A stretch of 11,417 nucleotides of DNA, from positions 1 to 11,417 of the forward strand of contig JAUVKJ010000025.1 of NCBI GenBank assembly GCA_030592145.1, written 5' to 3'. This document shows positions 1,311 to 11,417 of this stretch, one piece after another. Under the pieces are notes generated by a model that was not told the origin of the DNA, made no database searches, and worked only from the letters and a program-made list of their open reading frames with translations. Position 1 is the first letter of the stretch. Every line of letters begins with the position of its first letter. Source of the stretch: Bacteroides sp. GTDB taxonomy: Bacteria > Bacteroidota > Bacteroidia > Bacteroidales > SM23-62. The position numbers were made by a program, and so were the translations under genes.

Positions 1311-1322
1311 ATGCATGCATGA
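1311..1322 (+). promoter_or_regulatory. Overlapping start codons and three-codon mini-ORF at the regulator/transporter junction
   Basis: Directly after the regulator's TAA lies a 10-base palindrome (ATGCATGCAT) carrying ATG codons in all three frames at 1311, 1315 and 1319. The ATG at 1311 opens a three-codon frame (Met-His-Ala) whose TGA overlaps the transporter's ATG at 1319 as ATGA. A purine-rich AGAGGA at 1298-1303 sits 7 bases before the 1311 ATG and 15 before 1319. This could couple transporter translation to that of the regulator, but a chance arrangement is quite possible. Confidence 0.25.
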
Positions 1323-2725
1323 CTTCATATCACCGGCAAGTCCCGTTTTACTATCTTTACCCTTTCATGAAAAAATACTGCAACATCCCATTTGCCCCGG
1401 CGAAAGTGCCGGTTTTTTACGGATGGATCATCCTCGGGGCCGGTACGATCGGGATTTTAATGAGCATTCCGGGACAAACCATGGGGGTTTCCGTCTTCAC
1501 TGAAAACCTGCTTGAAGATCTTGAGATCAACCGGAACAATCTCAGCCTTGCCTACCTTATCGGAACCATGGGATCCGGATTGCTGATCACCCGGGCAGGC
1601 AAACTCTACGACCGGTTTGGTGCCAGGATAATGGCACTCATTGCCGGTGCCATGCTGGGACTCATGCTGCTTTATCTCACCCGTGTGGAGGGTGCTGTAC
1701 AATATCTTAACAACCGGAACGGGATCTCTCCGGCCCTCGCAACCTTCCTTTTGCTTGCATTCGGTTTCTGGGGCATTCGTTTCTTTGGCCAGGGACTGCT
1801 TACCATGGTGTCCCGGAACATGGTCATGAAGTGGTTTAACAAGAAAAGGGGACTGGCCAATGCGGTTCTGGGCGTATTTTCTGCTTTCGGATTCTCCCTT
1901 GCTCCAAAATTATTCAACCAGTTCATTGAGAAACTGGAATGGCAGGGAGCCTGGCTGCTGCTGGCAACAGTTGTCGGCCTTGGATTTGTTGTGTTTGTGC
2001 TGATCTTCTATCGTGACAATCCTGAAAACTGTGCATGCATTGCTGATGGTAAACGGATTTCCGGTAAAAAGACCAAACGACCGTCCAGCCTGCCTGACCG
2101 TGATTATAGCCTTGCTGAGGCAAGAAAAACCCGGGCCTTTTGGGCTTTTACCTTTGGAATGACACTTACAGCTCTTTATATCAGTGGACTGACATTCCAT
2201 GTTGTTTCGGTTTTTGATTCAGCCGGCCTGAATAAGGAAATGGCACTGGGAATCTTTTTGCCGACTTCCATAATTGCCATCGTAGTCCAGTTTATCTGTG
2301 GATATCTCAGTGACTTTATCCGGTTGAAATATTTGCTGATCCTGTTTATGTTTGGTATGCTCATCACAAGCACCGGGCTCACCATGCTCGGGAATCAATA
2401 TGCTGCTTACTGGCTCGTCATATTCGGGAATGGTATTGTATGGGGACTTTATACCGTTCTTATCGCAGTTACATGGCCCAGGTTTTTCGGATTGAAAAAT
2501 CTGGGAGCCATATCTGGGTTCTCCCTGAGCTGGGCTGTCTTTGGATCAGCGCTGGGACCCTATTTTTTCAGTCTTTCGATAATTTATACAGGCAATACAG
2601 ACCTGATTTCATGGATATGTGTGGCTTTATCCATATTTCTTTTCTTTTTCGCATTCAAGGCAGATAATCCAAATGAACTAAAAATATCAAACCATGAAAG
2701 ATCTTCGAAAAACCATCCATATTAA
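1319..2725 (+). CDS. MFS transporter, oxalate/formate antiporter (OFA)/monocarboxylate-like type, 12 membrane helices
   Basis: A 468-residue inner-membrane protein with twelve hydrophobic segments in two groups of six, separated by a polar loop at about 238-265. The MFS motif A between helices 2 and 3 is present (GKLYDRFGAR, residues 94-103, with D98 and R99). Helix 4 and the following loop (RFFGQG, then MKWFNKKRGLA) and the RDNPENC segment after helix 6 resemble MFS groups related to oxalate/formate and monocarboxylate carriers, so a small organic anion is a reasonable but unproven substrate. Two starts are possible: ATG 1319, 8 bases after the upstream stop, or ATG 1367 (residue 17), which gives a shorter cytoplasmic tail (MKKYCNIP) before helix 1. 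Neither has a well-spaced ribosome-binding site. The end overlaps the next gene by 32 bases, implying co-transcription with it. Confidence 0.9.
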   Translation: MTSYHRQVPFYYLYPFMKKYCNIPFAPAKVPVFYGWIILGAGTIGILMSIPGQTMGVSVFTENLLEDLEINRNNLSLAYLIGTMGSGLLITRAGKLYDRFGARIMALIAGAMLGLMLLYLTRVEGAVQYLNNRNGISPALATFLLLAFGFWGIRFFGQGLLTMVSRNMVMKWFNKKRGLANAVLGVFSAFGFSLAPKLFNQFIEKLEWQGAWLLLATVVGLGFVVFVLIFYRDNPENCACIADGKRISGKKTKRPSSLPDRDYSLAEARKTRAFWAFTFGMTLTALYISGLTFHVVSVFDSAGLNKEMALGIFLPTSIIAIVVQFICGYLSDFIRLKYLLILFMFGMLITSTGLTMLGNQYAAYWLVIFGNGIVWGLYTVLIAVTWPRFFGLKNLGAISGFSLSWAVFGSALGPYFFSLSIIYTGNTDLISWICVALSIFLFFFAFKADNPNELKISNHERSSKNHPY

Positions 2726-3074
2726 AGTACCACGCGAAAAAGTCTATAATGCCATTACCAATCCCCTTACCATTGAACTCTGGTCTGGTTATGAGGCCAG
2801 AATGGAGGACAAACCCGGAAGTGAATTTTCTTTGTTTGACGGTGATATTTCGGGAAGGATCCAAACTCTTTATCCCCCATCATTGCTCGAACAGGTATGG
2901 GATTTTGAAGGTCAGGAGGAAGATTCCGTTGTACGATTGGAGTTGTTTGACGAATCCGGCAAAACAAGGGTTGAGCTCATCCATACAAACATCCCCGATG
3001 ATGCTTTTGAAAACATTGAAACCGGGTGGAAAGAATATTACCTGGGTGCACTGAAGACCTACCTCGAGATGTAA
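2694..3074 (+). CDS. SRPBCC/AHSA1-like (START-fold) small protein
   Basis: A 126-residue soluble protein of the SRPBCC superfamily, closest in appearance to the AHSA1 (Hsp90-ATPase-activator-like) group. Visible hallmarks are the N-terminal strand with a VPREKVYNAITNP helix, a central GSEFSLFDGDISGRI hairpin, a QVWDF strand and the C-terminal helix GWKEYYLGALKTYLEM. Length matches the single-domain family (about 125-150 residues). The fold forms a hydrophobic cavity for lipids or other small ligands, but bacterial members rarely have known ligands and none can be named here. The start lies inside the 3' end of the transporter gene in another frame (32-base overlap), so the two are very likely co-transcribed and probably translationally coupled. 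No signal peptide is present, so it should be cytoplasmic. Confidence 0.85.
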   Translation: MKDLRKTIHIKVPREKVYNAITNPLTIELWSGYEARMEDKPGSEFSLFDGDISGRIQTLYPPSLLEQVWDFEGQEEDSVVRLELFDESGKTRVELIHTNIPDDAFENIETGWKEYYLGALKTYLEM

Positions 3075-3111
3075 GTCCCACATACCTGGCCGGCTATATT
3101 TATAATGAGGG

Positions 3112-3125
3112 TTTTTGTATCTTTA
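3112..3125 (+). promoter_or_regulatory. Candidate Bacteroidota -7 promoter box upstream of the giant sensor gene
   Basis: The sequence TTTTTGTATCTTTA contains TATCTTTA (3118-3125), one base from the Bacteroidota sigma-ABfr -7 consensus TAnnTTTG. It lies 24 bases before the ATG at 3150. A second box of the same kind, TATATTTA, lies at 3095-3102. No convincing TTTG-like -33 element is visible at the usual spacing. Almost the same 14-mer occurs at 8463-8476, before the oxidoreductase gene. If this box is the promoter, ATG 3150 rather than 3105 is the start of the sensor. Confidence 0.35.
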
Positions 3126-3149
3126 TTGCATAAACCCCGCAAACTGGTT

Positions 3150-6100
3150 ATGAGACCCCATATTTTTTTTACTGGATTTGTGTTCCTGCTGTGGACTTTT
3201 TTCTCAGTCCCATTAGACGCAAGAGATCTTGACGAGATTAAAAAAAGCGGAATAATCCAGATTGCCTTCACCGAAACCGATTACAATACCATAAATTATC
3301 CCCTGGCCCTGGAATTTGCCCGGTATCTTAATGTTGAAATGGAGTCCGTGACCATTACCTGGGACCAGGCCTTTCAGATAAACGGCAGGATCCCGGATGA
3401 CCTCCAGATGAACCCGGAGGTTTCCTACACTCCCGATGTTTTCTCCGGGGTGGATGCCATTTTCAGCACGTTTACAGTACTCGAATGGAGAAAGCGGATA
3501 TTTGGATTCGCCGAAACCCTGTTTTCAGCAGAATTGATCGTGATAAATAAAAAGGATGAGTCCCCTAAAAACTATGATGAGTTGAAAGGAAAAAGCCTTG
3601 CCATGATGCACGGTACCAGTTTTGAAAGCCATATCTCCGAGATAAACGAGTCCATCGGGGGTGGAATCACAACCATTCTTACAGAAAATTCAGATGATGC
3701 AAAAAATCTCCTGAAGAACGGCCAGGTATGGGGTGTGGTCCTGGATGCCGATGAAGCATTGAATTTCAGTGCAAAGAACAACAATGCTTTCAAGATCGGC
3801 ATTCCCATCAGTTCGGTCAGCAAAACCGCCTATGCTGTTGAAAAGGGCAATTCCCTGCGGCAGGAGATTGAGAACTTTTTCGAAACCATTGCAAACAACG
3901 GGGAACTCGACCGGATCTTTAATGAAATGTTCGGTATAACTTACTCGGTCTATTTTCAGCAGATATCCAAAAGTTCACGCCTGGAATACCTGAACAGGGA
4001 CCTGGCTGAGATACTTGAGTCTAAAAAACTTGTGGTAGCCCTGAGAGAAAGAAACTTTATCTACAAGGAAGGGGGGCAAAAACAGCTGATGCATGCCCTG
4101 GCTGAAGAGTTCGCTGATTTTCTCGGTGTCCAGATGGAATTCGTTGTAACACCCTATTTTGCAAAATACTGGGAAACAGCTGATGGAAGTGTTATCAAGG
4201 ACAGTTCCTACACCCCGGAATGGTTTAATTATTTTGATGTGGCCTGTGAGGTGATCGCACCCCTTGACTGGAGAACCAACAAGATTAACCTTGCAGGCAT
4301 ATATCCTTCAGATTATACCATCATTTCGAGAAAAGATACCAGGATCACCCGGATCGAGGATCTCAGAGACCTGTACGGAGTAACCTCCAAGCAAACGGTG
4401 TATGAACAGATCCTGCTTGAAAACGGCATTGACAGTTTTTATTATGCGAAGGTAAATGACTTTCTCTCCGATGTCATGGAAGGAAAGGCAGATTATACCA
4501 TGATCTATAATGCCTTCTTTGAATTGTCCGATTACCCGCAACTGGAAGTCAAATTACCCATGGGTGAACTGGAAGTATGCTGGGCAATGAGAAAGGACCA
4601 GCCTGAACTGAAATTGGCCCTGCAAGAATTCCTTAAAAGATCAGAAGAAAAGGGACTGATCAATATCCTTTTAAAGGCCATGCGGGGGCAAACCCTTCAG
4701 AGTACTGAAGATTTCATCAGCAGCTACTATGAACGCTTCCAGACCGGCCAGCTGCCATATGTCCTTTACGGGGCTGAAGACGGCCTGCCCCAGGAGGATG
4801 TGTTTTCCATTTACCAGGACCGGAAAGGCTATATGTGGTTTGGAACAAATTCCGGGGTGGTCCGGTATAACGGACGGGAAATGAAAGTTTATAATTCAGA
4901 CAACGGGCTGATCGACAATACGGTGCTGGACATTATACAGGATACCTCGGGACTGATCTATTTTGCCACATCCAAGGGCATAGCCGTATTCGATGAAGAC
5001 AGCATAGTCAGGAACCTGCTGGAGAAAAGTTCTTTTACATCCATTTTTGTTGACAGCTACAACACCAAATGGCTTCTGGGCGATAACGGGATATATCTCC
5101 TTGATCCACAGTTCAGCCTGTCTCACCTGAATGAATCCTTCCCGGAGTTGCCCGACAATGTCTATGCTGTGTGCGAGGACCCGGTAACCCATGATAAATA
5201 CATCGCCACCTCAGAAGGGATTTACATTCTTTCCCGTGCCGGCAATACCCTTACCAGGGTGTTCGACGAAAATTGCTATTCCATTTTTATTGACTCCAAT
5301 GACAGTATCTGGATCTCTACACAAAATGGCTTGTTTATCTCCGGTCTGGATGATCTCAGAAAAGGCCTCCTGCCCGACAGTAAAAGGAAATTGAATAAAA
5401 GCCTTAATTTTTCCGGCAAGATAATTAAGGGGATTTTTCAGAACAGTTTTGGTTCTGTCTGGCTGATTTCTGATTCCGAAATCCTTCAGGTGCTGTCAAC
5501 CGATCAGAAAGCCATAAAATATGAGAAAGAGATCGGCCTGAAAAACAATAATATTCTTTCCTTCTGGGTGGATATTGAAGATAATATCTGGATTGGCTTT
5601 TCGGGTGGACTCCAGCGCCTGACCAATAAACGGGGACTGCGGAATTTTTATCCGAATACGATTAATTCCTATATCTATTCTTCCTTTGAAGACAGGAACG
5701 GACGGATCTGGATAGCTTCTCACAACGGCATTTATTATTTTAAGAACATCCTTGTCAATTTTACTTCAAATCTTTCTTCCCAGACAGAAAAATATTGTGC
5801 CACGCTTCTTCCATCCGGGAATATCCTGGCAGCTTCTTCCGAAGGACTTTATGAGATCAGTGTCAATTCTCTCAAGATTGTCCGCCGCCGGAAATTTTCA
5901 AATTATCTTTTAAGCATTGAAAACATAACAGTCACTGAAAAAGGAGATATCTTTCTGCTAACAGGATTGAACAGGATCGTTTACTACTTTGAGAACTTCA
6001 GTGCTGCCCCGAAGGTGATCGAGAATAAACAAACTACCAATATCTACCAGTTGATTGATCTGAATGGTATCGTCATCGGTGGGAATAAAAATGAGATTGT

Positions 6101-7793
6101 GAATTTCAAGAACGGGAGCTTCCGAACCATTGAAAGGATAGGATGCAATATCTGGTGTATGTGCTATGCCGACAATGCATTATGGATAGGCAGCGATTGC
6201 GGATTATGGAAATTTGAAAATGGGGAATACCATAAGCTTGAAGTTCCCGGTAACAATACGGTCATCAAGTCCATTGTGCCTGCCAAAAACAAAAATTATC
6301 TCTGGCTTGGAACCAATAACGGATTTTCCTATTACAATATCTCCAATGACGATATTAAATTCACCATAGATTCAAAAGACGGGCTGCCGGGAAATGAAAT
6401 AACCGTTGGCAACCTCTTTATCGATGGTAATGACCTGCTGTGGATCGGCACCTATCACGGGCTGTCGAATTTCAATCTCCGCGCCAAAGCAATGCGTACA
6501 TTTACGCCCCTTTGCTATATTGAAAAGATCCTGTTGAACGGAGAATCCATTGATAAAGAGAGCGGAAAGATTTTCAGGCATTTTGAAAATAACCTTGTAT
6601 TTGAGATCTCCGGATTATCATATTCTAATGAACGATCCATTGAATATGAGTTCTACCTGCGGGGGGTGGAAAATGAATACTCCTCTTACCATAAGGGTCC
6701 CGAATTCAAAGCATACTATAACAATCTGCCCCCCGGAAAGTTTGAATTCATTTACAAAGCCAAAGGCAAGAACAACATCTGGGGGTATGCCCAGAAATAC
6801 CAGTTCACAATTATGAAAGCATGGTACCAGACCTGGTGGTTCAGGATCACCCTTGTTTTTCTTATCACTGCCGGTGCATGGTCTTTTTATAAGATCCGTG
6901 TACGCACGATCGAAGCCCAGAAAAAAAGGCTTGAACAACTCGTCAGGGAACGCACCCATGAACTTGAAGTGGCCAACATCGAAATCGAGGCCCAGCGGGA
7001 TCTTGCCACTTCACAACGCGATAAGATATTGAATCAGAAGAAGGAGATTGAAGACAGCATCTATTATGCACAGAGAATTCAGCAATCCCTCCTTCCTTCA
7101 CAGGAATTTCTTGACCGGCTGCTGCCTGAACATTTCATCTACTTCAGGCCAAGAGACATCGTCAGCGGTGATTTCTTCTGGGCCAATTATATCCGCGGAA
7201 AACTTATCATTACAGCGGTAGATTGTACCGGTCACGGAGTTCCGGGTGCATTTATGAGTATGCTTGGCATCGCTTTTTTAAATGATATCGTCAATAAGCA
7301 GGAACAGATCGATGCCAGCATCATCCTGAACCAGTTGCGCAATGAAATCATCCAGGCACTTGGTCAGACGGGGGCTGAAGATGAATCCAAAGACGGCATG
7401 GACATGTCACTATGCATCATTGATCGTGAAAACAAAATTCTTCAGTTTGCCGGAGCAAACAATCCCCTCTACCTTATCAGGCAGAAAGAATTAATGGTAA
7501 CCAGGGGAGATAAGATGCCGGTGGCAATTTATGATAATATGCCCCCTTTTACCAGCCATTCCATCTCCCTTGAAAAGGGGGATGCCCTGTACCTTTTTTC
7601 CGACGGGTATGCGGACCAGTTCGGTGGACCCAAAGAAAAGAAATTCATGTACAAGGCATTTAAGCAGCTGCTGTCTGAAATATCCGATAAATCCATGCCT
7701 GAACAGTCGAAGATCCTGGAAAAAACCATGGAAGACTGGCAGGGAACTTACGAACAGATCGATGACATGGTGATCATAGGCATTCGTATTTGA
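3150..7793 (+). CDS. Giant membrane sensor phosphatase: tandem SBP_bac_3, double propeller, Y_Y_Y, transmembrane helix, coiled coil, SpoIIE/PP2C
   Basis: Numbering is from ATG 3150 (1547 residues); ATG 3105 in the same frame would add 15. I prefer 3150 because it gives a compact signal peptide (MRPH, hydrophobic core to about 22, cleavage near LDA) and lies after a promoter-like box. Domains in order: family-3 solute-binding domain 1 (about 27-265), domain 2 (about 285-513), fourteen propeller blades (about 537-1115), Y_Y_Y immunoglobulin-like domain (about 1150-1215), one membrane helix (about 1229-1251) followed by basic residues, coiled coil (1252-1312) with the SIYYAQRIQQSLLP linker, and a SpoIIE-type PP2C phosphatase (about 1317-1547). 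Metal-binding aspartates are all present: D1341 (SGDF), D1358 (VDCTGHG), D1485 (FSDG) and D1539 (DDM). The ectodomain is thus periplasmic and the phosphatase cytoplasmic. The likely role is ligand-controlled dephosphorylation of an anti-sigma-antagonist-type partner; no such partner is in the window. No frameshift or lost catalytic residue is seen. Confidence 0.92.
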   Translation: MRPHIFFTGFVFLLWTFFSVPLDARDLDEIKKSGIIQIAFTETDYNTINYPLALEFARYLNVEMESVTITWDQAFQINGRIPDDLQMNPEVSYTPDVFSGVDAIFSTFTVLEWRKRIFGFAETLFSAELIVINKKDESPKNYDELKGKSLAMMHGTSFESHISEINESIGGGITTILTENSDDAKNLLKNGQVWGVVLDADEALNFSAKNNNAFKIGIPISSVSKTAYAVEKGNSLRQEIENFFETIANNGELDRIFNEMFGITYSVYFQQISKSSRLEYLNRDLAEILESKKLVVALRERNFIYKEGGQKQLMHALAEEFADFLGVQMEFVVTPYFAKYWETADGSVIKDSSYTPEWFNYFDVACEVIAPLDWRTNKINLAGIYPSDYTIISRKDTRITRIEDLRDLYGVTSKQTVYEQILLENGIDSFYYAKVNDFLSDVMEGKADYTMIYNAFFELSDYPQLEVKLPMGELEVCWAMRKDQPELKLALQEFLKRSEEKGLINILLKAMRGQTLQSTEDFISSYYERFQTGQLPYVLYGAEDGLPQEDVFSIYQDRKGYMWFGTNSGVVRYNGREMKVYNSDNGLIDNTVLDIIQDTSGLIYFATSKGIAVFDEDSIVRNLLEKSSFTSIFVDSYNTKWLLGDNGIYLLDPQFSLSHLNESFPELPDNVYAVCEDPVTHDKYIATSEGIYILSRAGNTLTRVFDENCYSIFIDSNDSIWISTQNGLFISGLDDLRKGLLPDSKRKLNKSLNFSGKIIKGIFQNSFGSVWLISDSEILQVLSTDQKAIKYEKEIGLKNNNILSFWVDIEDNIWIGFSGGLQRLTNKRGLRNFYPNTINSYIYSSFEDRNGRIWIASHNGIYYFKNILVNFTSNLSSQTEKYCATLLPSGNILAASSEGLYEISVNSLKIVRRRKFSNYLLSIENITVTEKGDIFLLTGLNRIVYYFENFSAAPKVIENKQTTNIYQLIDLNGIVIGGNKNEIVNFKNGSFRTIERIGCNIWCMCYADNALWIGSDCGLWKFENGEYHKLEVPGNNTVIKSIVPAKNKNYLWLGTNNGFSYYNISNDDIKFTIDSKDGLPGNEITVGNLFIDGNDLLWIGTYHGLSNFNLRAKAMRTFTPLCYIEKILLNGESIDKESGKIFRHFENNLVFEISGLSYSNERSIEYEFYLRGVENEYSSYHKGPEFKAYYNNLPPGKFEFIYKAKGKNNIWGYAQKYQFTIMKAWYQTWWFRITLVFLITAGAWSFYKIRVRTIEAQKKRLEQLVRERTHELEVANIEIEAQRDLATSQRDKILNQKKEIEDSIYYAQRIQQSLLPSQEFLDRLLPEHFIYFRPRDIVSGDFFWANYIRGKLIITAVDCTGHGVPGAFMSMLGIAFLNDIVNKQEQIDASIILNQLRNEIIQALGQTGAEDESKDGMDMSLCIIDRENKILQFAGANNPLYLIRQKELMVTRGDKMPVAIYDNMPPFTSHSISLEKGDALYLFSDGYADQFGGPKEKKFMYKAFKQLLSEISDKSMPEQSKILEKTMEDWQGTYEQIDDMVIIGIRI
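3228..4690 (+). repeat. Internal duplication: two tandem family-3 solute-binding (Venus-flytrap) domains
   Basis: Two domains of the bacterial solute-binding family 3, which binds amino acids and similar small ligands, lie head to tail inside the giant sensor. Each has an unusual SYTP motif followed 22 residues later by the arginine of a W-R pair: S92 to R114 in copy 1 and S353 to R375 in copy 2, an exact offset of 261 residues. Around these, both copies carry SYTP[D/E]xF and [E/D]WR, then a strand leading to a K-D turn (INKKD and ISRKD). The tandem arrangement resembles the two flytraps of BvgS-type sensors, where it controls a kinase. There is no adjacent permease or ATPase gene, so sensing rather than transport is the likely role. 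Confidence 0.75.
4760..6485 (+). repeat. Fourteen propeller blade repeats (two predicted seven-bladed beta-propellers)
   Basis: Within the giant sensor I count fourteen copies of the two-component-regulator-propeller blade, roughly [IL]W[IF]GTxxG[LI]xx[YF] and degenerate forms. Their approximate positions are 4829 (MWFGTNSGV), 4951 (IYFATSKGI), 5065 (KWLLGDNGI), 5197 (KYIATSEGI), 5305 (IWISTQNGL), 5454 (VWLISDSEI), 5583 (IWIGFSGGL), 5703 (IWIASHNGI), 5820 (ILAASSEGL), 5945 (IFLLTGLNRI), 6065 (IVIGGNKNEI), 6178 (LWIGSDCGL), 6297 (LWLGTNNGF) and 6435 (LWIGTYHGL). Fourteen is the number expected for two seven-bladed propellers, as in HTCS sensors such as Bacteroides BT4663. Blades 6, 10 and 11 are the most degenerate. 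Confidence 0.8.
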
Positions 7794-7797
7794 TCCG

Positions 7798-7833
7798 TTT
7801 TAATGCAACCCCTGATTAATCCTCCTGTCTTTG
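7798..7833 (+). promoter_or_regulatory. Candidate promoter upstream of the barrel gene
   Basis: In the 77-base gap after the sensor gene, TGTCTTTG (7826-7833) is one base from the Bacteroidota -7 consensus TAnnTTTG. A weak TTTT/TTAATG stretch about 20-24 bases upstream (7798-7805) could serve as the -33 element. A start site near 7840 would give a leader of about 30 bases before ATG 7871. No stable hairpin that could act as a terminator is visible in the gap. Confidence 0.35.
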
Positions 7834-7870
7834 TTAATAAGATATATCATAAAACCAAATCCGGACACCT

Positions 7871-8449
7871 ATGAGAAAAATAATTATTGCTTCCTTTATT
7901 ATCCTGTCTGTTAGCGGTCTGAAGGCCCAGGACAGCGAAATCCAGACATTGTTCTCCGGTACCACAAGCATCAGTGGCTTCGGTGGACCCGCGATGAGTT
8001 TTACAACAATAAACGGAGAATTTGCCCATATGATGGGTGGTGGTGGTGGAGTCCTGCTGGGTGATTTCTTCTTCGGGGGTTATGGCGAGGGATTGACCAA
8101 CGGGATCCCTATCGGTGCTAACCGGCTTGATTTCGGCCATGGCGGCTTCTGGACCGGATACTCTTTTTTCGCCAACAGGCCATTTCATCCGGCAATTTCA
8201 GCCCAGATTGGGTGGGGAGGGGTTTCTGAAAGAGATTACAATTATTCTTACCTGACTTCCGATAATGTATTTGTCTTCAACCCGGCTATTGAACTTGAAA
8301 TGAACTTCACAAGGTTTTTTCGCCTGAGTGTCGGTGTACATTACCGGATTGTAACCGGTGTTAATCCCGAGATGTATTCCAGCCATCTTACCAATTCAGA
8401 CCTGTCCGGTCCCGGAGCTTTACTGGCCTTTAAATTCGGATGGTTTTAG
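7871..8449 (+). CDS. Small exported protein, probable outer-membrane beta-barrel; function unknown
   Basis: A 192-residue protein that I do not recognise as a characterised family. It starts with a clear signal peptide (MRKIIIASFIILSVSGLKA, cleavage before QDS). The mature part is rich in glycine and aromatic residues arranged as alternating strands, includes a run of five glycines after HMM (about residues 55-61), and ends in the aromatic sequence FKFGWF. A terminal phenylalanine preceded by alternating hydrophobic residues is the usual signal for outer-membrane barrel assembly, so a small barrel of about eight strands is plausible (inference). It has its own possible promoter and lies 31 bases before the oxidoreductase gene, so it may be co-transcribed with it. 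No catalytic motif is visible. Confidence 0.75.
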   Translation: MRKIIIASFIILSVSGLKAQDSEIQTLFSGTTSISGFGGPAMSFTTINGEFAHMMGGGGGVLLGDFFFGGYGEGLTNGIPIGANRLDFGHGGFWTGYSFFANRPFHPAISAQIGWGGVSERDYNYSYLTSDNVFVFNPAIELEMNFTRFFRLSVGVHYRIVTGVNPEMYSSHLTNSDLSGPGALLAFKFGWF

Positions 8450-8462
8450 TACTTTCCCTGCT

Positions 8463-8476
8463 TTTTTGTATTTTTA
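8463..8476 (+). promoter_or_regulatory. Candidate -7 promoter box immediately before the oxidoreductase GTG start
   Basis: TTTTTGTATTTTTA matches the 14-mer at 3112-3125 at 13 of 14 positions and contains TATTTTTA (8469-8476), close to TAnnTTTG. A GGTTTTAG stretch at 8442-8449 could be a weak -33 element at about 21 bases. The box ends only 4 bases before the GTG at 8481, so a transcript from it would have little or no leader. The A/T-rich palindrome TTTTTAAAAA at 8471-8480 overlaps it. Confidence 0.3.
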
Positions 8477-8480
8477 AAAA

Positions 8481-10079
8481 GTGTATGATTACATCGTAAT
8501 TGGTTCGGGATTCGGCGGAAGTGTTGCAGCTCTCCGCATGGCTGAAAAAGGTTATTCCGTACTTGTAATCGAAAAGGGGAAAAGATATTCCCATAATGAT
8601 TTCCCGAAAACCAACTGGAACCTGAGAAAATACCTCTGGGTGCCCGCCCTCAGGTTATTCGGGTTTATGAAGCTCACATTAAACCGTAATGCAAGTATCC
8701 TGTCCGGAGTCGGAGTCGGAGGAGGGAGCCTTGTATATGCCTGTACCCTGTTTCATCCACCGCTTGATTTTTTCGGGCATCCTTCCTGGAAAGGTTTTGC
8801 CGACTGGAAAAAGGTTCTTGATCCGTATTATGAAAAGGCAGGTTTCATGATGGGCCGCAAGAAATACGACAAGCTGAATCCGGAGGATATGCTTCTGAAG
8901 GAGGTGGCTGAAGAAATGGGCCGGCCCGACAGCTTTGACAGGGTACATGTCGGGGTATACCTGGATGAACAAGAAGAAGAAAGGGATCCTTATTTCGGGG
9001 GACTGGGTCCAATGAGAAAACCCTGCACGGAATGTGCAGGTTGCATGACAGGCTGCCGGGATAATTCAAAAAATTCCCTGGACAAGAATTATCTGTATTT
9101 TGCCGGGAAAATGGGCGCTGAAATCCTGGCCGAAACCAGGGCTGTGAAAATTGAATGCAAGCAGGGCGAATACCTTGTCAAAACCTGCTCCTCCACATCT
9201 TTTTTCAGGCGTAAGCCTGTTGTTTACAAGGGTAGGGGACTGATCCTTGCCGGGGGTACCCTGGGCACCATGGAATTACTTTTAAAGCAAAAACATAAAT
9301 ACAAATCCCTGCCGGCCCTTTCCGACAGGCTTGGTTTCGGAATCCTGACGAATTCCGAATCTCTTTGTGCTGTTTCCTCCATTCCCCGGAAAATGAATAA
9401 CGGCCTCGCCATCACATCAGTCTTTAACCCGGATGATGACACCCATATTGAAGTGGTGAAATACCCCGACGGATCGAATGCCCTGAAATGGTTTTACTCG
9501 CTTTCGGCGAGCGGATCCAGGTACAACTTTTTTCGCTTTTTTAAGCTTATACTCAATAGCCTTCGACATCCCTGGAAGTTCCTTAAAATAGTTTTTAATA
9601 TGAACTGGTCAACCGGCCTGGTGATCTTTCTTGTCATGCAGCATATTGAAAATGCAATGAGCATGAAATGGAAGAAAACCATTTTCGGAGGAAAGATGAT
9701 CATCGACAACATGGGCAAGAAAAAGGCGCCGGCCTATATCGATATCGGGCAGAAGGTAATGGATACCTATGCACAAAAATCAGGCGGTATCGCCCAGAAT
9801 GTCATTCTCGAGATCCTGTTTAACCGTCCCACTACAGCACATATCCTGGGGGGTTGTGCCATGTCTGAAGGAGTCGGCACCGGAGTGGTCGATCCTGAAC
9901 TCAGGGTTCACGGGTACCCGAACATGTATGTGGTGGATGGGTCCGTTATCCAGGGGAACATTGGTGTAAATCCAAGTTTCACCATCCTGGCCATGGCAGA
10001 ATATGCCATGGATAAGATCCCTGAAAAAAAAGGCAACCGGCAGGTCTCCCTTGCAAAACAAATGGAAGGAATATCATGA
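8481..10079 (+). CDS. GMC-family FAD-dependent oxidoreductase with CxxCxxCxxxC cluster
   Basis: A 532-residue flavoprotein of the glucose-methanol-choline family, in the group resembling bacterial cholesterol oxidases. It starts at GTG 8481; no later start fits, because the FAD-binding Rossmann motif (GSGFGG, residues 8-13, then E31 at the end of strand 2) begins at once. A second glycine-rich FAD segment (SGVGVGGGSLVY) lies at about 75-87. The C-terminal catalytic region has H454 (TAHILGG) and N497 (GVNPSFTI), the His/Asn pair that abstracts the substrate hydroxyl proton and hydride in GMC enzymes. C182, C185, C188 and C192 form a ferredoxin-like cluster seen in this subgroup. There is no signal peptide, so it is probably cytoplasmic or membrane-associated; a hydrophobic stretch lies at about 374-391. 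The alcohol substrate is unknown. Its stop overlaps the lipoprotein start (ATGA), so the two proteins are probably made together. Confidence 0.92.
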   Translation: MYDYIVIGSGFGGSVAALRMAEKGYSVLVIEKGKRYSHNDFPKTNWNLRKYLWVPALRLFGFMKLTLNRNASILSGVGVGGGSLVYACTLFHPPLDFFGHPSWKGFADWKKVLDPYYEKAGFMMGRKKYDKLNPEDMLLKEVAEEMGRPDSFDRVHVGVYLDEQEEERDPYFGGLGPMRKPCTECAGCMTGCRDNSKNSLDKNYLYFAGKMGAEILAETRAVKIECKQGEYLVKTCSSTSFFRRKPVVYKGRGLILAGGTLGTMELLLKQKHKYKSLPALSDRLGFGILTNSESLCAVSSIPRKMNNGLAITSVFNPDDDTHIEVVKYPDGSNALKWFYSLSASGSRYNFFRFFKLILNSLRHPWKFLKIVFNMNWSTGLVIFLVMQHIENAMSMKWKKTIFGGKMIIDNMGKKKAPAYIDIGQKVMDTYAQKSGGIAQNVILEILFNRPTTAHILGGCAMSEGVGTGVVDPELRVHGYPNMYVVDGSVIQGNIGVNPSFTILAMAEYAMDKIPEKKGNRQVSLAKQMEGIS

Positions 10080-11417
10080 TCCGGCTCATATACCTGAAAC
10101 TAATCCTTTGGGGTGTTCTGGCATTTTCGCTCGTCACCCTTGCCTCCTGCAAGACCGGTTCCGGACCCTGGCCTGCAGGAGACCTTCCACAATTCATACC
10201 ATATTTGAATGAGCTAAAAGTCGATGGTGATCCGTCGGATTGGCCGGATTCCTATCCTCCCCTCCGGATACTTTCTGACATATACGGAGATGCGCCCGAC
10301 TCCTCTGATCTGTTTGCCCGGTTCAGGCTTGCCTGGAATCATAATGGCCTGTTCATCCTGGCTGAAGTATGGGACGATTCCCTGTATGAGGATCCCTCCA
10401 GGTTCTGGAACGGTGACGGACTGGAACTCTTTGTCAGTCCCGGTAAAGGATCATTTGATATTGTCCAGGTCTCCGTTCGTCCATCCTACGATCTGCCGGA
10501 TTCCCTTACTGCAGTGGTTCATTATGATCACCGCAGGTCCGATTCGCTGCGGTCTGTTGTTCCCGGATCCATTTTCTTCAGTCATAAATCCACCGGCTAT
10601 TACCTACTCGAAGGTATGGTCCCGCTTGATATGCTGGGAATGAATCCTTCGATTGGAATGGAAATGGCCGTCCAGATATACATAAACGATTCAGACAGAA
10701 AAAATGATTCCATGAACCATAGCCTTCCATGGTATCCCGTCCGTGATTCATACAGGAATCCCTATGCTTTTCACCGGGTTCAGTTCAGTGAGTTTGCCCT
10801 CCCTGTCATTACCCCTGAAGTCAGGGCATACATCAGCGACGAAAGGACCATTCATCTTAAAATCCTTTCAGATCAATCCTGCAATGGTAAAGAGTTACAA
10901 ATTCTTTCAGACAATTTTACCAGGCAATTCATCCTGCACCCTGAATACAACGGCCTTTACATACGTCAATGGAAGTTGCCGCTAAGAAAGTTCCAGCCCT
11001 TACATGGCACCATTTATTTTCTTCTGCATGACAGCCTGTTTTCAAGCATTGACCTGTGTATGGCGCACAGGGTGTATGAGAACATCCCGAAACCCAACCG
11101 GTTTGAAGACGAGATCAGGATCTTTGAGATCATTGATCACCATCAGCCTCCACCGGAAAATGCAATCTTGTTTACCGGCAGTTCCACCATCCGAAAATGG
11201 CATGAGATTGAACAGTATCTGCCCGGTTTAAAGTTGATCAACCGTGGATTCGGAGGATCTACCATGAAAGACCTGAATTATTACCTTAACCGCATTGTAT
11301 TTCCCTACAACCCTGCCCTCATATTTATTTATGAAGGAGATAATGACATAGCCCGGGGTGCCGGTCCCACGGAATTTATTGAAGAATGCAGGGATTTTAT
11401 CCTCGCCTGCGGTGACC
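10076..11417 (+). CDS. Lipoprotein with CBM9-like domain and SGNH/GDSL hydrolase domain; 3' end off window
   Basis: An open frame of 447 codons runs from ATG 10076 to the right edge without a stop, so the C-terminus is missing. A lipoprotein signal peptide ends in the lipobox LASC with C25 as the lipid-attached residue, so the protein is anchored in a membrane, probably exposed in the periplasm or at the surface. Residues about 48-233 resemble a CBM9-type carbohydrate-binding domain (VDGDPSDW around 49-56, LFILAEVWDDSL, and NGDGLELF with D114 and E117). A linker region of about 235-355 is unassigned. An SGNH hydrolase domain follows: block I GSST (candidate nucleophile S370), block II GFGGS (391-395) and block III GDND (421-424, N423). 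The block V Asp-His pair lies beyond the window. The likely activity is an esterase or acylhydrolase, perhaps deacylating a polysaccharide; the substrate is inference. It overlaps the oxidoreductase gene by 4 bases. Confidence 0.9.
   Translation, partial: MIRLIYLKLILWGVLAFSLVTLASCKTGSGPWPAGDLPQFIPYLNELKVDGDPSDWPDSYPPLRILSDIYGDAPDSSDLFARFRLAWNHNGLFILAEVWDDSLYEDPSRFWNGDGLELFVSPGKGSFDIVQVSVRPSYDLPDSLTAVVHYDHRRSDSLRSVVPGSIFFSHKSTGYYLLEGMVPLDMLGMNPSIGMEMAVQIYINDSDRKNDSMNHSLPWYPVRDSYRNPYAFHRVQFSEFALPVITPEVRAYISDERTIHLKILSDQSCNGKELQILSDNFTRQFILHPEYNGLYIRQWKLPLRKFQPLHGTIYFLLHDSLFSSIDLCMAHRVYENIPKPNRFEDEIRIFEIIDHHQPPPENAILFTGSSTIRKWHEIEQYLPGLKLINRGFGGSTMKDLNYYLNRIVFPYNPALIFIYEGDNDIARGAGPTEFIEECRDFILACGD

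Follow-up and report, generated by a model that had tools for sequence, protein, structure and literature searches.

A tandem-flytrap, double-propeller sensor protein with a probable SiaA-type phosphatase output in Bacteroidales-type bacteria

The SiaABCD system of Pseudomonas aeruginosa, a phospho-switch involved in the control of biofilms, is the closest described relative of the output examined here; its SiaC is a binding partner and activator of the diguanylate cyclase SiaD, according to passages of PMC8457831 and PMC7647112, and SiaABCD-like combinations have also been reported in Campylobacterota, in a study that names Bacteroidetes in its references only (PMC9239204). Sensor parts comparable to those of our protein are known from other systems. 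Two consecutive flytraps are found in BvgS (PDB 4q0c), in EvgS (9ilw) and in the tandem SBD of GlnPQ (6h30), whose outputs are a kinase for the first two and a transporter for the third, while a double propeller followed by a Y_Y_Y domain makes up the ectodomain of the HTCS proteins BT4663 (4a2l/4a2m) and BT3049 (3v9f). CdgH of Vibrio cholerae joins tandem periplasmic binding domains to a non-kinase output, in this case a diguanylate cyclase, with no propeller mentioned in the accessible portion of PMC5431781. Finally, in RsbU and its kin, a coiled coil signals to a phosphatase dimer, as presented in excerpts of PMC12143880, with other sensor parts than ours and the general stress response as output. 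In the protein described in this work, tandem flytraps precede a double propeller and the output is a PP2C phosphatase. Within the open literature (subscription journals and preprints lying outside the scope), we met no work pairing SBP_bac_3 with SpoIIE or pairing SpoIIE or a phosphatase with propeller families, and nothing evidently related that combines Y_Y_Y, SpoIIE, propeller and phosphatase. In the same scope, the DUF1987/DUF6272/SiaB/SiaC family names were met only in PMC8457831, and SiaC together with PP2C and Bacteroid- only in PMC9239204.

The flytrap gene (3150..7793, + strand, 1547 aa) lies in a window of 11,417 nucleotides, by which we mean the whole stretch of DNA that was analysed; its open frame begins at 3105, 5' of the gene start, and all its features are on the + strand. 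A signal peptide (3150..3221), hydrophobic from residue 4 with a hydropathy of 1.73 over 19 residues and a presumed cleavage site, is followed by flytrap 1 of the SBP_bac_3 type (residues 24-266, 3219..3947), identified by sequence and structure matches, and by a divergent flytrap 2 of the same type (residues 281-512, 3990..4685), for which a single-sequence search gave no match and a profile search was then used, together with structure matches. The HTCS-like double beta-propeller (residues ~534-1116, 4749..6497) is recognised by Reg_prop, by PDB entries 3v9f and 4a2l and in the structural model, which also supports the Y_Y_Y domain (residues ~1117-1222, 6498..6815) that Pfam scores at 26.3 bits against a cut-off of 26.6. 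A membrane helix (residues ~1229-1249, 6834..6896), placed by position and weak hydropathy only, leads to a coiled-coil linker (residues ~1250-1314, 6897..7091) proposed from the phasing of its length, and to a PP2C/SpoIIE phosphatase domain of SiaA type (residues 1315-1547, 7092..7790) with intact metal-site aspartates. SpoIIE is the sole C-terminal Pfam match; the scan revealed neither a histidine kinase nor a receiver or AraC output in the protein. The architecture put forward in the original prediction, from the two flytraps to the phosphatase, is thereby borne out by the domain evidence, and the predicted structure of the ectodomain agrees with it. Compared with HTCS proteins, the double propeller and Y_Y_Y are retained, whereas the histidine kinase, receiver and AraC output are missing and tandem flytraps are added in front.

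The window is the entire contig of a fragmented genome bin, a situation in which the flytrap gene might be an assembly join of two genes, as had been envisaged near position 4700, or a pseudogene. A protein search scored 8000 candidates, 2558 of them with E ≤1e-3, and listed the best 120, one of which is the window's own protein. Among the matches listed, the flytrap protein is covered to 99% or more by 118 of the 119 other homologues (to 89% by the last one), their identity to it ranges from 56 to 87%, and their length stays near 1547 aa. The existence of these near-full-length homologues excludes a join near 4700; with the catalytic residues intact besides, any join or pseudogene appears vanishingly improbable. 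Throughout the order, the flytrap query found a match in 36 of 393 genomes and 18 of 206 genera, with one gene per genome, double rows in that search being halves of one gene. The match falls in a frame of 1404-1673 aa in 32 of these 36 genomes; in the other four, three genes run off the end of their contigs and one match (G325) is partial. A sample of the phylum (395 genomes) yielded a match in the own genome only and in 0 of the 394 others, and 80 loci found with the protein all belong to metagenome-assembled genomes, mostly of Bacteroidales or Bacteroidetes. The flytrap-propeller-phosphatase protein is a conserved, orthologous and architecturally stable family of some Bacteroidales-type bacteria. 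The supposed rarity of the combination is half right: it was met in a single order, in which, however, it forms an orthologous family.

The two flytraps were compared in an alignment of 70 rows (the window, 62 listed homologues and 7 distant orthologues). All 70 rows have Trp113-Arg114 in flytrap 1 and Trp374-Arg375 in flytrap 2, and 66 have Asp199, which also belongs to flytrap 1. The Arg114 and Arg375 columns align with the carboxylate-binding arginine of amino-acid binding proteins, and the Asp199 column is that of their ammonium-binding aspartate; in flytrap 2, the profile alignment places Tyr453 in this latter column in 60/70 rows. Both ligand sites look alive as far as residues can tell. 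Since the arginine is conserved in both flytraps and Tyr453 takes the place of Asp199 in flytrap 2, we propose differing ligand classes: flytrap 1 may bind an alpha-amino acid or a peptide end, and flytrap 2 may bind another carboxylate without the usual ammonium contact. In structural terms, Foldseek aligned the tandem flytraps with BvgS 4q0c (E 8.1e-18, 508 columns, TM-score by target 0.35, rmsd 11.8), which is outranked by the GlnPQ tandem 6h30 (E 1.3e-22). This comparison rests on the Foldseek list, the PDB neighbours of the ectodomain model being filled by propellers, and the TM-scores by target of the tandem-flytrap matches (0.35-0.47) leave the mutual arrangement of the two flytraps unmatched. 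The term BvgS-like is suitable for the fold, not for the family, as there is no histidine kinase.

The same output could also be reached if the flytraps were mainly structural, with the propeller alone sensing a glycan, or if one flytrap were a fixed clamp. The tyrosine in the ammonium-aspartate column of flytrap 2 and the loss of Asp199 in 4/70 rows of flytrap 1 would suit such a scheme, as would the closed VFT2 of BvgS described in a part of PMC4352136. However, the invariance of the carboxylate-site arginine and its neighbouring tryptophan in both flytraps is unlike relaxed constraint, and we hold both schemes to be rather unlikely. The best reading of the input of the flytrap phosphatase remains a small molecule, perhaps also a glycan.

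How the signal could reach the catalytic domain is suggested by the linker, whose length was measured from the motif RT.[EQ][LIV] after the membrane helix to the motif YA..IQ at the start of PP2C. Both motifs are present in 93 of the 157 distinct SpoIIE ORFs, the first being missing from 56 and the second from 8, and the distances of 17, 24, 31, 38 (the window), 45, 52, 59 and 73 residues are in phase modulo 7 in 93/93 cases, or in 93/98 with a looser first motif. By comparison, four distances taken as controls in these proteins are spread over 3-7 residue classes. Similarly, the linker segment measures 21, 35, 49 or 56 across the homologues of alignment A2 (69 rows), in which a multiple of 7 is seen for 2 of the 13 indels outside the linker. 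With orthologues included, phase is kept by each of 102 proteins, which form 44 clusters at 60% identity but 3 at 50%, so the independent events are fewer than these counts. Among the orthologue rows themselves, some of which are one gene from two collections, 36/41 are in phase, the exceptions being two with distant anchors (1152 and 1113 residues) and three truncated ones. Such heptad-step lengths fit a continuous coiled coil, a mode of signalling that has been argued for PPM phosphatases in sections of PMC12143880.

The catalytic domain is a SiaA-like PP2C with an intact metal site. The NCBIfam SiaA model (NF038263), the best phosphatase profile for the flytrap protein, gives 198.4 bits with a match limited to residues 1252-1547, far below the equivalog cut-off of 700 bits for the whole protein because the sensor part differs; it gives 201.8 and 183.3 bits for the two distant orthologues that were scanned. 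The sole PDB sequence match of the phosphatase is SiaA-PP2C 6k4e (E 4.4e-37). From this alignment and the order of motifs, the metal-site residues of SiaA, as named in passages of PMC7647112, have their counterparts in D1341, D1358, G1361, D1418, D1485, G1486, D1489 and D1538/D1539, all invariant in 36 aligned sequences. The protein thus shares its PP2C metal site with P. aeruginosa SiaA, from which it differs by an unrelated sensor part. The kinship extends to most phosphatases of the own genome, where SpoIIE occurs at 11 places; the window and nine others were scanned (a fragment on C95 was left out), and SiaA is the best match for eight of these nine (L196, L197, L200-L205; 141-196 bits). 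The SiaA model gave no match for the ninth, the 411-aa phosphatase of L199.

If the domain is of SiaA type, SiaB and SiaC would be its partners, and both are indeed found with it. Of 60 related genomes, 30 encode SiaC (PF09345), the very same 30 encode SiaB (PF19788, for which the name DUF6272 is still in use), and 45 encode SpoIIE. Both partners are present in all 29 genomes that possess at least three SpoIIE copies; the other 31 comprise one with both and 30 with neither. Raw Spearman coefficients over the 60 genomes, in which kinship is ignored, are 0.89 for SpoIIE-SiaC and 0.91 for SpoIIE-SiaB. SiaB and SiaC are present in 8/8 flytrap genomes of this set (kinship again ignored) and in 19/19 genomes matching the flytrap protein at E ≤1e-100, some of these matches spanning only its C-terminal third. 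The own genome encodes two SiaB and six SiaC proteins. One of these SiaB proteins matches 6kko_A (E 7.1e-10) and passes model NF038262 (158.9 against a cut-off of 85), and SiaC matches 6kko and 6k4f (E 1e-16) while remaining below its equivalog cut-off (88.8 against 150). At the SiaC phosphosite column, 53 of 58 distinct ORFs have Thr and the other 5 have Ser. SpoIIE reaches up to 49 copies per genome and outnumbers SiaC in 26 of the 30 SiaC-bearing genomes; many phosphatases may therefore converge on few SiaC proteins.

Gene order points to the same partnership in part of the orthologues. Among 35 flytrap neighbourhoods (own + 7 + 27, drawn from the 36 genomes without the partial match of G325), SiaB and SiaC lie upstream on the same strand in seven: in the order B-B-C-flytrap gene in L247, L252 and L254, B-B-B-C-one gene-flytrap gene in L249, and B-C(-B-C)-phosphatase-flytrap gene in L248, L250 and L253. 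Pfam confirms ten clustered SiaB/SiaC proteins from L247, L249, L252 and L254 and four in L014, the same locus as L250, where the intervening phosphatase carries TPR repeats; those of L248 and L253 were detected by purpose-built profiles only. The linked neighbourhoods fall in two families of the order, covering 4/4 and 3/4 genomes, with the contig ending in the fourth. The window and the 27 further neighbourhoods, several of them on short contigs, show no SiaB/SiaC. In the 80 loci found with the flytrap protein, SiaB or SiaC appears in eight, in same-strand order in four (raw count). The eight of 80 are unconvincing alone, and it is the neighbourhoods of flytrap orthologues that give clear linkage. 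Elsewhere in the own genome, SiaB and SiaC come after a phosphatase gene in L196, and SiaC alone does so in L197. An apparent fusion was also seen, a 508-aa ORF with both SiaB and SiaC matches (L014, 18000-19526).

These results bear directly on the output. The partner-switching phosphatase of the original prediction holds, with SiaB and SiaC as co-occurring partners, and a SiaA-type output is a better reading than control of an alternative sigma factor. In the latter case, an RsbU-type route, the phosphatase would act on an RsbV-like STAS protein and free a sigma factor, for which the general SpoIIE fold and two STAS genes above cut-off in the own genome can be invoked. One is a standalone gene (L119, 181-528), directly followed by what we take to be a ribonuclease Z gene; the other (L120, 1480-1818) lies between an ABC gene and a small gene that presumably resembles an HPt domain. 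The search for STAS and anti-sigma partners was thus positive for STAS, but revealed no clear small RsbW-type kinase in this genome, which is 73% complete; of four HATPase_c_2 matches, one is above cut-off, in a 746-aa frame. Moreover, SiaA is the best profile for the flytrap protein and nearly all the phosphatases scanned with it, and the exception of L199 may itself be the STAS partner. Fifteen of the 60 genomes have 1-2 SpoIIE and no SiaB/SiaC, so a separate kind of phosphatase seems to exist. A SiaA-type output is preferred because of the SiaA-like domain and the co-occurrence and linkage of SiaB/SiaC, and we consider the RsbU-type route improbable.

An AHSA1 protein (2694..3074, + strand) is encoded directly upstream, as in six other loci, and the order MFS-AHSA1-flytrap gene-192 aa-GMC-CBM9/GDSL characterises the clade of the window, L188 and L189 (the latter with one more ORF). 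This block, from MFS to CBM9/GDSL, spans 1319-11417 of the window; its 192-aa protein has no Pfam match, and its GMC oxidoreductase scores 513 bits against a cut-off of 850 with the cholesterol-oxidase model. Positions 3-1310 encode the C-terminal portion of a hybrid histidine kinase that carries receiver and AraC domains and is truncated where the contig stops. An anti-phage role was set aside, as PADLOC gave no match for two proteins.

In the flytrap genomes, a diguanylate cyclase is an unlikely effector. GGDEF was found in 2 of 60 genomes, some of them incomplete, and in 0/8 flytrap genomes, so that the likeness to SiaABCD, which comprises SiaB and SiaC, the kept phosphosite and a SiaB/SiaC gene cluster in part of the orthologues, stops at the GGDEF protein. 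Of 45 distinct SiaC loci, which are the best-scoring ones and no random draw, 32 have beside SiaC a protein of ~1030 aa that combines ABC_tran with ABC2_membrane and shows a TerB match slightly below cut-off; it is encoded on the strand of SiaC in 17 and on the opposite one in 15. In all, 5 of 60 loci have no called SiaC. One example, a 1030-aa ABC_tran-ABC2_membrane protein in L071 (22130-25222, - strand), is a candidate effector. By eye, L196 (9312-9716) and L120 (1-1344, - strand) begin alike.

Taken as a whole, the flytrap protein is quite probably a transmembrane sensor phosphatase that takes the part of SiaA in a partner switch of the SiaA/SiaB/SiaC type, to judge from its sequence and that of its presumed partners. 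Ligand binding to flytrap 1 (an alpha-amino acid or a short peptide, probably), to flytrap 2 (a carboxylate) and perhaps to the propeller would alter the geometry of a putative ectodomain dimer. The change would pass through one membrane helix into the in-phase coiled coil, which would set the pairing of PP2C and thereby its activity, upwards or downwards. SiaB would act as the kinase that phosphorylates SiaC on Thr/Ser, and the active flytrap phosphatase would remove this phosphate, with the altered SiaC then binding or leaving its effector. On a wider scale, the Bacteroidota of this order might run a large SiaABC network free of c-di-GMP, a view that we regard as equally open to confirmation and to failure. 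It would comprise many sensor phosphatases (propeller, TPR, GAF/PAS and double flytrap-double propeller) with heptad-step coiled coils, fewer SiaB/SiaC pairs and, maybe, the ~1030-aa ABC-ABC2 protein as effector.

To conclude, our results provide many SpoIIE phosphatases of Bacteroidota with a definite partner system accessible to in vitro assays, and the heptad rule predicts how their sensor parts may be swapped. They also offer a case in which two small-molecule clamps and a propeller are wired into one phosphatase. Besides, they suggest that the SiaABC switch operates without its known target enzyme, SiaABC-like switching having been carried into a setting seemingly without diguanylate cyclases.
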